Of a stretch of DNA of 45,592 nucleotides, positions 24,834 through 45,592 are shown piece by piece; within the stretch, counting starts at the first letter, position 1, and every line of letters starts with the position of its first letter. The notes below the pieces were generated by a model. That model had not been told where the DNA came from. It did not search any database and worked only from the letters and a program-made list of their open reading frames with translations. The position numbers and the translations under genes are program-made. The stretch covers positions 1 through 45,592 of the forward strand of contig RDZP01000008.1 of assembly GCA_004294005.1 (NCBI GenBank), given 5' to 3'. Source of the DNA: Cytophagia bacterium. Lineage in GTDB: Bacteria > Bacteroidota > Bacteroidia > Cytophagales > Microscillaceae.

Positions 24834-27248
24834 ATGTTTCGTTTATTTTTACTTTTTTTATTGTTTTACAATACTATTTTTTCATCTTTTGCACAAATTT
24901 CAGGACAAATCAATAACGAAAAAAAAGAAAACATCGAATTTGCCAATGTAAGTTTACATAGTTTGCCTGATTCAACAGTGATTACAGGGCAATTAAGTGA
25001 TGCAGAAGGCAAATTTAGTTTTGATTTTCCTCAAAAAATAACTGATTATTACGTAAAAGTAAGTCAAATTGGTTTCAAAACAAATTATTCTACTATTTTC
25101 TCCAATAAAAATTCATCAACAATTCAACTCACTATTATTTTAGAAGAAGATGTAAAAAATTTAGAAGGTGTAGAAATATTTGCCAAAAAAAACTTTCTTG
25201 AATACCAAGCAGATAAAACAATTTTAAATGTAGAAAATAGCGTTTTTAGTAATGGATTGTCTTCTTCGGATATTTTAAAAAGAGCGCCAGGCGTAGCAGT
25301 CGACCAAAATGGAGGTCTTTCACTCAAAGGTAGAAAGGAAGTTTTGGTACTCATAGACGGAAAACCTACCTATTTGACAGACGAACAAGTCGGAAGATTG
25401 CTAAAAAGTTTGCCTGCTAACCAAATTGCAACCATTGAAATTTCGACTACACCTTCCGCTAAATTTGATGCAGAAGGCAACGCAGGTTATATCAATATTA
25501 AACTCAAAAAAAATGCAATTAATGGATTTCATGGTGATATTAATATCAGTGCAGGACAAGGTTGGTTTTCGAAACAAAATACAGGCATTCATCTTAATTA
25601 TAAAAAAGGAATTACCAATATTACTGCCAATTATGATTTTAATTATGATGTTTGGATGAATAATTATAAAAGCGATAGAAATATTCAAAGCACACAAGGA
25701 ACAACTACTTTTAATCAAAATGCTTATTATCGTGTGCCAAATGTTACACATACTTTAAAATTAGCGGCAGATTTTAACATCTCACCTACGCTCACAATGG
25801 GCGTGCAGGGGCAAGGATTGCAAACTTCGAACAGTTGGCAAGGAGGCAATCAAACACAACTTTTTGATAATTCGGTACTCAATCAAAATTTAATTACACA
25901 AGATTTTAGTAAAGATTTTTTTAGAGAATTTACAAGCAATTTTTATATTCGTTATCAAAAAGATAGTTTGTCAGAATTATCTTTTGATGCTGATTACGCA
26001 AAATTTGACCAAAGAAATCCACAAGGTTTTATCACACGCACTTATAATCAAGCAGGTGCAGAGATTGCTCCCGTTTTTATTTTGAATAGTAAAGTACCAA
26101 CTTTAATGGATATTTATGCTTTTAAAGCAGATTATACTCGAAAAATAGGAAAATCAAAATTAGAAACAGGTGCAAAATGGAGCTGGGTAAATACAGACAA
26201 TGATATGAGATTTGTACAAACCATCAATAATATCGAAAGCATAGATACAAGAAGAACCAATCATTTTATTTATAGAGAAAATATTTGGGCGGCTTATGTT
26301 AATTTTTCAGGTAAAAAAGATAAATTGACTTATCAATTTGGATTAAGAGCAGAAAAAACGACTACAAGAGGCGAACAACGCATTACAAATCAAATCTTTA
26401 CGCGTGATTATTTTAATTTATTTCCACAAATTTCCCTTGATTATCAATGGAATAAAAAAAACGCTATCGGTATCAATTATAACAAAAGAATCGATAGACC
26501 TAATTATAAATCATTAAATCCTTTTGTGTATTTTTTAGATTTGTATGCCTCAGAAGCAGGAAATCCATTTTTAACGCCACAATTTACCAATCATACCGAA
26601 CTTAATTATCGTTTTGATGAATGGTTACAAATTACGGCTAATTATTCTCAAACTGATTTTGTGATGACCGATATACTCAAACAAAATTCTACAACGCAAG
26701 AAATGATTTATACAAAAGATAATTTAGAAAGTTTTATTAATTATGGTATAAGTGCTAATATTGCTTTGCCTATCACAGACAAATGGCAAGTTAATCATTT
26801 CCTTCATTTCTTTCATAATTCATTTTCAGGGATTTACTTAAATATTCCCTTAAAAAATCAATCTTTAGCTTATTCTTTTACTTGGCAACATCAAATTAGT
26901 TTACCTAAAAAATGGACATTGGAAATAGCAGGCAATTATAACTCAGGACAATCACAAGGAATTATGCAACAAAAATCAATGTGGCTTTTAAGTATGGGCG
27001 TTCAAAGAAGCATTTGGAAAGATAAAGGAACTATCAAAGCATTTATAAATGATATTTTTTGGGCAGAGGTTTATAGAAATGAAACAAAATTTGCTGATAT
27101 TGATGCAACAGGTTTGTATAGACACGATACAAGAGTGTTTACGATTGCTTTTAGTTATCGATTTGGAAAAAATTTATTCCAAAATGATAATACAAAAACA
27201 CGAAAAACGGCTTTAGAAGAAGAAAAAGAAAGAATGAAAGGAAAATAG
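24834..27248 (+). CDS. TonB-dependent-receptor-like outer membrane beta-barrel protein (CarboxypepD_reg-like + plug + OMP beta-barrel)
   Basis: Signal peptide; ISGQINNEKKENIEFANVSL; KRAPGVAVDQNGGLSLKGRKEVLVLIDGKPTYL...AEGNAGYINIKLKKN; Arg/Phe-ended barrel. Confidence 0.9.
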   Translation: MFRLFLLFLLFYNTIFSSFAQISGQINNEKKENIEFANVSLHSLPDSTVITGQLSDAEGKFSFDFPQKITDYYVKVSQIGFKTNYSTIFSNKNSSTIQLTIILEEDVKNLEGVEIFAKKNFLEYQADKTILNVENSVFSNGLSSSDILKRAPGVAVDQNGGLSLKGRKEVLVLIDGKPTYLTDEQVGRLLKSLPANQIATIEISTTPSAKFDAEGNAGYINIKLKKNAINGFHGDINISAGQGWFSKQNTGIHLNYKKGITNITANYDFNYDVWMNNYKSDRNIQSTQGTTTFNQNAYYRVPNVTHTLKLAADFNISPTLTMGVQGQGLQTSNSWQGGNQTQLFDNSVLNQNLITQDFSKDFFREFTSNFYIRYQKDSLSELSFDADYAKFDQRNPQGFITRTYNQAGAEIAPVFILNSKVPTLMDIYAFKADYTRKIGKSKLETGAKWSWVNTDNDMRFVQTINNIESIDTRRTNHFIYRENIWAAYVNFSGKKDKLTYQFGLRAEKTTTRGEQRITNQIFTRDYFNLFPQISLDYQWNKKNAIGINYNKRIDRPNYKSLNPFVYFLDLYASEAGNPFLTPQFTNHTELNYRFDEWLQITANYSQTDFVMTDILKQNSTTQEMIYTKDNLESFINYGISANIALPITDKWQVNHFLHFFHNSFSGIYLNIPLKNQSLAYSFTWQHQISLPKKWTLEIAGNYNSGQSQGIMQQKSMWLLSMGVQRSIWKDKGTIKAFINDIFWAEVYRNETKFADIDATGLYRHDTRVFTIAFSYRFGKNLFQNDNTKTRKTALEEEKERMKGK

Positions 27249-27320
27249 TTTATTATTTTTATAGAACATAAAAATACATTTACTTAATTAGTATTTTTGT
27301 ATTATAATAATTAAATTTTT

Positions 27321-27570
27321 AGTGCTAATTTCTTAATTTTATGTATTGTTAATTAAGTTTTAAGTACTATTTTTTTAATTTTATGTATTGTTAATTAAGT
27401 TTTAGGTACTATTTTTTTTATTTTACGTATTGCCAATTAAGTTTTAGGTACTAATTTTTTAATTTTACGTATTGTCAATTAAGTTTTAGGTACTATTTTT
27501 TTAATTTTACGTATTGTTAATTAAGTTTTAGGTACTAATTTTTTAATTTTATGTATTGTTAATTAGGTTG
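27321..27570. repeat. Tandem repeat array, ~42-bp unit x 6
   Basis: Unit (A)GGTACTATTTTTTTAATTTTACGTATTGTTAATTAAGTTTT; starts at 27321, 27362, 27404, 27446, 27488, 27530. Confidence 0.95.
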
Positions 27571-35747: not shown

Positions 35748-35759
35748 CGAATAAAATAT

Positions 35760-35880
35760 AGTCAGACCTTTGGTGCAGACTATATTTAGTCAGACCTTTG
35801 GTGCAGACTATATTTTTAAAATATTAGTCAGACCTTTGGTGCAGAATATATTTTTTAGTCAGACCTTTGGTGCAACTATA
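35760..35880. repeat. Four copies of AGTCAGACCTTTGGTGCAGACT-type motif in the leader of the downstream receptor gene
   Basis: Copies start at 35760, 35788, 35826, 35857; irregular AT-rich spacers. Confidence 0.95.
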
Positions 35881-35916
35881 TTTTTAAAACAATTATATCC
35901 TAAACATAATAAAACA

Positions 35917-43064: not shown

Positions 43065-44162
43065 CTAAATATTTTTCAAATGCGGATTTTTATCATTATT
43101 TTTCCAAATATAACCATCAATAATATAATGACTTACTTGTGGAATTGATAAAAATGCAAAAGCAAATGCTTTTAAAAAAGGATCAGTGAATAAATAAGTA
43201 GGATAACTAAGAAAATGACTAAAAAAAGCAATTTTTTGTCGATTTAACCACCAATCCCAACAATATTCCTCTAAAAAAGCCAATAATAAAATACAAACAA
43301 ACATCAAAAAAATATGTTTTGTATATTTCCAAAAACTAAAAGAAGTTGATAATTGAATTGATTTCTTTTTTTCTACATACACAAAAACCAACAAAATATA
43401 AGGAACGCCATGCGCAATTACATTCGTGAGCGTAAAAGCAATATCAGAATTAAAATAAACAATACCAATGTACCAAGCCAAAGCAGTTGTCAAAATCCAT
43501 AAAATTTTTCCCCAAGCCCATTTTTTTATTGCTATTTTTTGAGAATAATAGATTTCTTCTATCAACCAAAAAAATAAAATCAAAAAATAAAAAAAGTGTA
43601 AATATTGCCAAATAAAATTATATTTCTCTAAAAAAAATGATAAATTTAAAAAATCACCTACATAAAACCATTGAAATTTTCGTTGTGATGAAAAATGCCA
43701 ATAAAAAATAGGATACAACATCGAAAAATAAATTACCCATTTATCAGCAAAAAATTTTGAATGTTTAATACCATATTTTGCACGATACAAAGCCAAAAAA
43801 CCATATTGTTGTCTAACAAAATGATGCAAAGCCAAATAAGCCATTACTCTCCAAAACCAAAGAATAGAAATATTTACCACAAAAAAAAGCACCAAAAAAA
43901 CCAATATCGGCGTAAATAACAATAGTTTTTTATGCCTTTCAAATTCAAATTTATCTAAATAAGTTCTCAAAATTGTCGCCCACACATGACTAACATCTAT
44001 GCCCATTACCACTATCACCCACACCCACAAAGGCAAAGGATTATTAAGAATTTTGATTGGAATAAAAAAGCAGGCAAAACAAGCCAACCAAACAGGTAAA
44101 AATAAGCCAATTATATCTATTTGAAAAGAAAATAACCAAATTTTTTTAGGTTGAGCAAGCAT
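43065..44162 (-). CDS. Polytopic membrane protein, unknown function, coupled to the upstream methyltransferase
   Basis: Multiple TM helices; LALHHFVRQQYGFLALYRAKYG; ATG (44162-44160) overlaps methyltransferase TGA (44164-44162). Confidence 0.75.
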   Translation of the reverse strand: MLAQPKKIWLFSFQIDIIGLFLPVWLACFACFFIPIKILNNPLPLWVWVIVVMGIDVSHVWATILRTYLDKFEFERHKKLLLFTPILVFLVLFFVVNISILWFWRVMAYLALHHFVRQQYGFLALYRAKYGIKHSKFFADKWVIYFSMLYPIFYWHFSSQRKFQWFYVGDFLNLSFFLEKYNFIWQYLHFFYFLILFFWLIEEIYYSQKIAIKKWAWGKILWILTTALAWYIGIVYFNSDIAFTLTNVIAHGVPYILLVFVYVEKKKSIQLSTSFSFWKYTKHIFLMFVCILLLAFLEEYCWDWWLNRQKIAFFSHFLSYPTYLFTDPFLKAFAFAFLSIPQVSHYIIDGYIWKNNDKNPHLKNI

Positions 44163-45133
44163 CAAAGTAATGTAGTTTGTTGTGCTAATTTTTTATCTAA
44201 TAATTTTATCAAAGACCAATAACCACGCCCCGTTTCAGCAGTCAATATTTCGATAGATTGTTTTTTGTTGTTGCCTTCTTTTTTCAATTCTTTGAATCGG
44301 TGAATAATTTGATTGATTTCTTCCTCTAAAAGTGGTTTTCCTTGATTGAATAATTTATTTTCATCAGGCATTTTGATATTTTTTAATAGGCTTCCTTTTT
44401 CAATTTTCTTCATTTCTTCGCTTTGATAGTCAAAAGCAATCGGGTTTTTTTCGAAACCAACTGCATTTCTATTCAAAGCCAAAGCTACTTTTGCAGTAGA
44501 AAAACTGCCTAAGAAAAAATCACAAACGAGGTCATTTTCATTGCTCGAATATTGAATTATTTTTGTCAATAATTGTGTAGGCAATTCATTTTTATTTTTG
44601 ATTTGATTGGGTTTGTATTCTTTATTTATCAACCAAACATCTTCTCTGTCTTGATAATTCAGTGATTTATTTTGTTCATCTTTTTGACTATCGCCAAACC
44701 TTGCAAAAGTATTAAAAGTAGGATTTCCACCTTTTTTTTGATAAAACAAAATATGATAATGAGAAGAAATGTATTTTTTTTTGGTATAAACACCAAAATT
44801 ATATTTCCAAATGATATGATTAACCAATTTTAATTCTGTTTTTTCGAGAGCATTTAAGATGTGTATCAAATTGGTATAACCTGAAATAATATACAAACTT
44901 CCGCCAAACTTCAGTACTCTTTCTGCTTCTTTTATCCATTCCACCGAAAAATCAGCATATTCAATCAAAGGTACTTCGATGTAGCCGTCCAAAACTTGAC
45001 TTTCATCTCTGTTGTAATGTTTGTGCAACAAATCGCCGTCGATGCCATAAGGAGGGTCTGTGATGATTAAATCTACAGAATTATCTTGGAGGTATTTTTT
45101 TGCTCCTTCTCTACAATCTATATTATAAAACAT
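44162..45133 (-). CDS. Beta-class site-specific DNA methyltransferase (N6A/N4C type)
   Basis: Motif IV DPPYG near N-terminus, motif I-like DFFLGSFSTAKVALALNRNAVGFEKN near C-terminus (order IV...I = beta class). Confidence 0.9.
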   Translation of the reverse strand: MFYNIDCREGAKKYLQDNSVDLIITDPPYGIDGDLLHKHYNRDESQVLDGYIEVPLIEYADFSVEWIKEAERVLKFGGSLYIISGYTNLIHILNALEKTELKLVNHIIWKYNFGVYTKKKYISSHYHILFYQKKGGNPTFNTFARFGDSQKDEQNKSLNYQDREDVWLINKEYKPNQIKNKNELPTQLLTKIIQYSSNENDLVCDFFLGSFSTAKVALALNRNAVGFEKNPIAFDYQSEEMKKIEKGSLLKNIKMPDENKLFNQGKPLLEEEINQIIHRFKELKKEGNNKKQSIEILTAETGRGYWSLIKLLDKKLAQQTTLL

Positions 45134-45147
45134 TGTTTTTATGATTT

Positions 45148-45592
45148 TTAAATACTATTAACAAATACATCAAAACTATCAATACTCATAAAATCAATTT
45201 TGAAGTTTTGGTTGTCAATTTTAGAAACTTTTACACTATCAACTCCTAATAGTTCTAGCCTATCATAGGTCAATAATTGTCCTTCTTTTAATTTCAATGT
45301 TTTACGCAATAACCAGTCAGAAAGAGCGTTATTAGGGTTTGTCATCAATGCTTTACCATTTTCTTGACATATTTTTGCATTTAATATTTCTGCTGTTGGT
45401 ATTTTAAGGTTAAATGTATCATCTCTTTTAGGAAAAAAATTGGGAAATTTATTATGAATAATTTTAGGTATGGGAATATATACTTCACCAATATTTCTTT
45501 TTCTGCCTCCTGAGTTCCATTGATTTAAGCTACTTTTTTCTGATACAACTTTTTTATTTGGTCGACTATCTCTTAGAGAATAAAGAGGTAAT
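45148..45592 (-). CDS. Partial restriction endonuclease, NgoFVII/PLD-type C-terminal (B3-like) region; 5' end outside window
   Basis: Manual translation from the window edge has no stop: ...NQWNSGGRKRNIGEVYIPIPKIIHNKFPNFFPKRDDTFNLKIPTAEILNAKICQENGKALMTNPNNALSDWLLRKTLKLKEGQLLTYDRLELLGVDSVKVSKIDNQNFKIDF...*; adjacent methyltransferase. Confidence 0.75.
   Translation of the reverse strand, partial: LPLYSLRDSRPNKKVVSEKSSLNQWNSGGRKRNIGEVYIPIPKIIHNKFPNFFPKRDDTFNLKIPTAEILNAKICQENGKALMTNPNNALSDWLLRKTLKLKEGQLLTYDRLELLGVDSVKVSKIDNQNFKIDFMSIDSFDVFVNSI

Follow-up and report, generated by a model that had tools for sequence, protein, structure and literature searches.

We consider it likely that the restriction endonuclease gene (R) cut by the end of this contig encodes a B3-like DNA-binding domain joined to a nuclease that is not of the PLD type, that its cognate methyltransferase gene lies off the contig, and that the methyltransferase gene beside it (M2) was acquired separately. 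R is an ordinary restriction enzyme from a catalogued but poorly described family (PADLOC REase_II PDLC03479). M2, the METHYLTRANSFERASE adjoining R, is probably not its partner. These readings come from an analysis of the whole 45,592-nt stretch, hereafter the window, together with homologous loci from other genomes, plasmids and viral contigs. The coordinates of the features discussed are collected in Table 1.

Table 1. Features at the R-M2 end of the window.
Feature	Coordinates	Strand	Content or basis
R (Type II restriction endonuclease gene, 3′ end)	45148..45591	-	Last 147 codons plus stop; PF20731 and PDLC03479 profiles, 68% identity to the L003 R and 73% to the L044 R, invariant columns of alignment A1
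R-M2 intergenic gap	45134..45147	.	14 nt; homology to the sister species begins here (window ≤45140)
M2 (complete DNA methyltransferase; beta-class, DPPY-type, 6mA-type)	44162..45133	-	PF01555, PDLC03296
366-aa hydrophobic (membrane-type) protein	43065..44165	-	Follows M2 here and in G001

The R gene at the contig end

The listed open reading frame at this edge (66 aa, 45148-45348, minus strand) starts at an internal TTG. Upstream of its TAA stop codon (45150-45148), the minus-strand frame stays free of stops over 147 codons to 45591, leaving base 45592 over. This is how the preliminary description had read it, and the peptides quoted there are present. The separation of 14 nt from a beta-class methyltransferase was also given correctly: the M2 ATG lies at 45133. 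The window is an entire contig (G000:C151, 1-45592) of a fragmented assembly of 217 contigs, so the truncation of R at its edge is an assembly break. Estimated against the full-length relative L003, ~233 codons of the 5′ part of R are absent. A search for the N-terminal half of R in the rest of the assembly, which is 79.8% complete, found only the window tail.

Elsewhere in the window, an array of a 42-bp AT-rich unit (27308-27569; 6.2 copies, 91% matches) lies between open reading frames ending at 27248 and 27855. Repeats with TAGTCAGACCTTTGGTGCAGACTATATT (35759-35889) surround the start of an 864-aa open reading frame.

The R fragment matches the PDLC03479 profile with an E-value of 3e-57, its residues 1-145 aligning with model positions 234-375 of 376. 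It also matches Pfam PF20731 (RE_NgoFVII_C, a B3-like DNA-binding domain) with an E-value of 1.8e-10, above the curated cut-off. Thus, a Type II restriction enzyme is represented here by its C-terminal ~39%, and both the truncated restriction enzyme and the NgoFVII-type C-terminal domain seen in the preliminary description are upheld. The fragment carries the B3 domain's invariant residues (alignment A1). The 21 full-length relatives are 40-73% identical to it, and the three nearest come from other genera (L044, 73%; L003, 68%; L045, 67%). Ten relatives were taken from the genome collection and others from order- and phylum-wide searches and plasmids. A further search for R loci around G437 returned only loci already in the set, and a search of viral contigs found no R. 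Searching the PDB by sequence with the fragment, with the family profile or with the R of L003 yielded nothing, or chance matches only. The dN/dS of the fragment is ~0.13 against L044 and ~0.10 against L003, with dS near saturation.

Methyltransferases at R loci and the adjoining M2 gene

A partner methyltransferase is adjacent to R or within a few kb at 20 of the 21 full-length R loci. It is a C5 methyltransferase at 17 loci and an SPPY enzyme at three; the remaining locus (L026) has none nearby. The C5 partner usually sits immediately upstream of R, and at a few loci it is downstream or divergent. It is found downstream of R at L049 and L050, so a downstream position by itself does not exclude M2 as a partner. 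One C5-partnered R, at L027, is 65% identical to the window fragment. At L003, L044 and L045, which encode the three R proteins nearest the fragment, the SPPY enzyme is immediately upstream of R. The same SPPY enzyme precedes a degraded R tail at a fourth locus, L025. SPPY enzymes are usually N4-cytosine methyltransferases, and DPPY enzymes are usually N6-adenine methyltransferases. In the tree, the window R sits at an open fork, with weak support for grouping it with the SPPY-partnered relatives, and an off-contig SPPY partner is therefore a prediction from the nearest relatives. An L003-like SPPY methyltransferase was sought elsewhere in the genome, where only distant paralogues were found (best E 3e-15).

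M2 is an intact protein of 323 aa in which motif IV (DPPY, residue 26) precedes motif I (DFFLGS, residue 205). It matches PF01555 (E 2.4e-40) and PADLOC MTase_II PDLC03296, a group of DPPY beta-class methyltransferases with relatives in large viral contigs (E 7e-127), and its nearest solved structures are CcrM (1.4e-16), RsrI and MboIIA. By motif order and domain, M2 is assigned to the beta-class N6-adenine DNA methyltransferases, with adenine as its predicted target. The sister species G001 lacks R but has an M2 that is 85% identical, and downstream of it again comes the membrane-protein gene (truncated there). A DLPY methyltransferase occupies the place upstream of M2 in that genome. In a blastn comparison, window positions 43857-45140 align with G001 contig C149 at 80% identity and nothing aligns above 45140; the nucleotide homology ends within 8 bp of the R stop codon. 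The comparison with G001 (dN/dS ~0.11) indicates that M2 is under purifying selection. The 366-aa membrane-type protein, which has no Pfam match above cut-off and no NCBIfam or PADLOC family, is a neighbour that shares M2's synteny block with G001 and stands outside the system.

Among 391 genomes of the order, M2 was found at E≤1e-45 only in this genome and in G001. Eight viral contigs, several of them 68-275 kb long, hold M2 relatives up to 68% identical. Copies with 68% identity are found in viral contigs of 205-275 kb and also in G694. Outside this genome, R stands beside an M2 relative at none of the 11 loci read (G001, G694, G754 and the eight viral contigs). The simplest reading is that M2 is a phage-related methyltransferase resident in the genus, and that R was gained here or lost in G001.

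Other genes accompany the M2 relatives. In G694 and G754, distant genomes of the same phylum, M2-family methyltransferases adjoin homologous ~220-aa proteins that are 41% identical (L079 3590-4273; L080 3070-3729, minus strand). These proteins have INWDLKSH/ISWDFKSH (WDxK) motifs and no significant Pfam match, and they are plausible candidates for undescribed restriction nucleases. Two viral M2 relatives precede another shared protein, with 30% identity between the L037 (5954-6601) and L043 (5959-6753) copies and likewise no significant Pfam match, which is possibly a viral nuclease or methyltransferase partner. The window and the G001 contig contain neither protein: M2 stands here without the candidate nuclease of G694 and G754, and a search of the whole genome assembly for the ~220-aa protein found none.

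The preliminary description had joined R and M2 as a restriction-modification pair. A simple two-gene Type II system, in which M2 would methylate adenine in the R site, is unlikely. The two genes share a strand, with R immediately before M2 at a 14-nt spacing that would fit an operon; PADLOC labels M2 as MTase_II; and some relatives have a methyltransferase downstream of R. Nonetheless, an M2-type DPPY methyltransferase is beside R at none of the 21 R loci, where the partners are of cytosine type (C5 or SPPY), and M2 persists without R in G001 and in viruses, its relatives having other neighbours. The pairing was thus not borne out, although G001 could have lost R while keeping M2.

It is quite improbable that R and M2 form part of a BfiI- or LlaJI-like system of three genes and an asymmetric target, in which an off-contig SPPY enzyme (4mC) would protect one strand while M2 (6mA) protects the other. 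Two methyltransferases can be required where a B3 enzyme has an asymmetric target (BfiI, PMC4267653; LlaJI, PMC12707154), and M2 directly follows R here. However, no second methyltransferase stands beside R at L003, L044 or L045, and M2 is found without R elsewhere. The separate acquisition of M2 remains the preferred reading.

The surroundings of R vary among its relatives. At L026 (4912-6084), the R gene is intact and no recognised methyltransferase lies within ~5 kb on either side. On plasmids L048, L049 and L051, very short patch repair endonuclease or base-excision repair genes lie near the C5 methyltransferase, which fits a 5mC-based system. An AAA-type gene and a second gene adjoin R in L027 (6216-10566), L029 (47-4339), L009 (7563-10145) and L048 (6169-9336). 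The second gene is DUF2357-PDDEXK_7 in L027 and L029 and McrBC-like in L009 and L048, and these stretches are defence islands. The ATPases of these four loci were considered as CglI-like N subunits and rejected: they are McrBC-like or AAA/DUF2357 proteins, and they are also absent from most other R loci.

At three further loci (L012 641-2070; L046 864-2260, minus strand; L047 4531-5783, minus strand), a start-less R tail is directly preceded by a two-gene cassette. The cassette encodes a ~257-aa protein (with PF13020 NOV_C in L046 and L047) and a protein of 82-89 aa. The junctions between cassette and tail differ across the three loci, and the tails come from different R lineages, which suggests that the same cassette has replaced M plus R independently at least twice. 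The window also displays only a tail, and its R fragment could on this model be a decaying remnant whose 5′ part has been replaced. We regard this as doubtful, since the window R frame is open to the contig end, reaching N-terminal of all three remnant junctions, and its dN/dS is low.

The nuclease half of R relatives

The preliminary description had also called R a PLD-type enzyme, to be checked for PF09565 and the PLD HKD motif. That check, run on full-length relatives, found neither, and the PLD assignment was not supported. PF09565, the NgoFVII PLD domain, has no match at E≤1 in the scanned full-length relatives, and PF20731 matches their C-terminus. Two genuine NgoFVII-like enzymes, L064 and L065, served as positive controls; both match the two profiles, with E-values in one such control of 2.5e-27 for PF09565 and 6e-37 for PF20731. 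When the 21 relatives were aligned with L064 by hhalign, the B3 half scored a probability of 98.6% and the N-terminal half ~0.1%. For the HxK...GSxN signature, GSxN never occurs in the 21 relatives and HxK occurs once by chance. In RefSeq, the homologues on plasmids are called ‘NgoFVII family’ or ‘restriction endonuclease PLD domain-containing protein’, and the homologues so named themselves match PF20731, not PF09565. On this evidence, the RefSeq name appears to suit the DNA-binding half alone. The idea that R is genuinely of the NgoFVII/NgoAVII/BfiI type, with a PLD nuclease at its N-terminus, can draw on the C-terminal PF20731 domain, on these RefSeq names and on R.NgoAVII as the best PDB match of the full-length AlphaFold2 model, but it is scarcely tenable: the proteins so named match the DNA-binding profile only, the relatives' N-terminal halves have neither PLD similarity nor signature, the NgoAVII structural match has a TM score of 0.23-0.25, as expected if B3 alone matches, and an enzyme with the non-PLD half shares 73% identity with the fragment.

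The N-terminal halves of the relatives point to a different nuclease. Their residues E44, D64 and K75 are invariant (L003 numbering), with K75 in the motif GIGLKTF, and K86, E89, N114, R116, Y131, H132 and R136 are also conserved. Foldseek searches with the full-length model were dominated by the B3 domain, so the N-terminal half was modelled and searched alone. Its AlphaFold2 model has the order alpha-beta-beta-beta-alpha-beta (pLDDT 75; the structural models are moderate overall, at 71-75), with E44 on the first core helix and D64 and K75 at the first two core strands. Matches to the PDB were weak and not significant (E 0.17-0.5). The first five include Hje/Hjc resolvases and NhoI; we take Holliday-junction resolvases and NhoI to be PD-(D/E)XK proteins. 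The 50 matches listed include no PLD protein. In BFVD, the uncharacterised phage protein A0A6J5LH57 has a similar predicted fold (E 5e-8). The motif in the N-terminal half is GxK, not (D/E)xK; another position must therefore supply the second acidic residue, and E89 is a candidate. With moderate confidence, we infer that the relatives' N-terminal half is a PD-(D/E)XK-like nuclease. The corresponding half of the window R is off the contig, and another domain could therefore be fused here.

R among B3-containing restriction enzymes

The closest known group is the PDLC03479 family itself (~376 aa, RefSeq ‘NgoFVII family restriction endonuclease’), whose members are mostly C5-partnered, whereas the closest relatives of the window R are SPPY-partnered and only the last 39% of R is present here. 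No member of this family with an experimentally tested target was found. NgoFVII, NgoAVII, CglI and BfiI, which combine PLD and B3 domains, share a homologous C-terminal B3-like domain with R (PF20731; Foldseek 4rct, 2c1l). Unlike them, the relatives of R are without the PLD domain and motif, and among their neighbours no CglI-like N-type helicase/ATPase was identified. EcoRII and LlaJI combine a B3-like domain with a non-PLD nuclease, and Foldseek matches of the full-length model include the N-terminal domain of LlaJI.R1. In EcoRII the B3-like domain is at the N-terminus, whereas in the window R it is C-terminal, on a single chain. LlaJI consists of a GTPase plus a McrC-like nuclease (PMC12707154).

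A working model follows from the preferred reading of R and M2. The C-terminal NgoFVII-type B3 domain of R would read a short DNA target; in CglI, NgoAVII and BfiI, the B3 domain alone binds its target specifically (PMC4267653). Known targets of PLD-B3 enzymes are ACTGGG, GCCGC, GCSGC and GCWGC (PMC4267653, PMC4081073). The similarity of R to these enzymes is too low to transfer specificity, and thus no R target is predicted. The off-contig N-terminal half would cut the unmethylated target through a putative PD-(D/E)XK-like fold that is presumably metal-dependent, probably using Mg2+. The protecting methyltransferase would probably be an N4-cytosine enzyme (SPPY) encoded directly upstream of R, off the contig. 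M2, as a presumed separate acquisition from a phage-associated family, is predicted to have its own motif and to methylate adenine there. A more far-reaching version, in which the NgoFVII B3 domain was re-used on an unrelated and undescribed PD-(D/E)XK-like nuclease, the partner switched between 5mC and 4mC with the cutter retained, and mixed 4mC/6mA modification with a phage-derived M2 may occur in this organism, is improbable.

These results correct a propagated label. The proteins named ‘PLD domain-containing’ in RefSeq have only the DNA-binding domain in common with NgoFVII, and they probably cut via a different, metal-dependent active site. Adjacent genes of restriction-modification type need not be partners, which matters when methylation motifs are assigned, and evidence would be needed before R and M2 are regarded as a pair. 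Finally, the occurrence of both C5 and N4-cytosine-type partners across the R family could be used to test whether one specificity is protected by different methylation chemistries.
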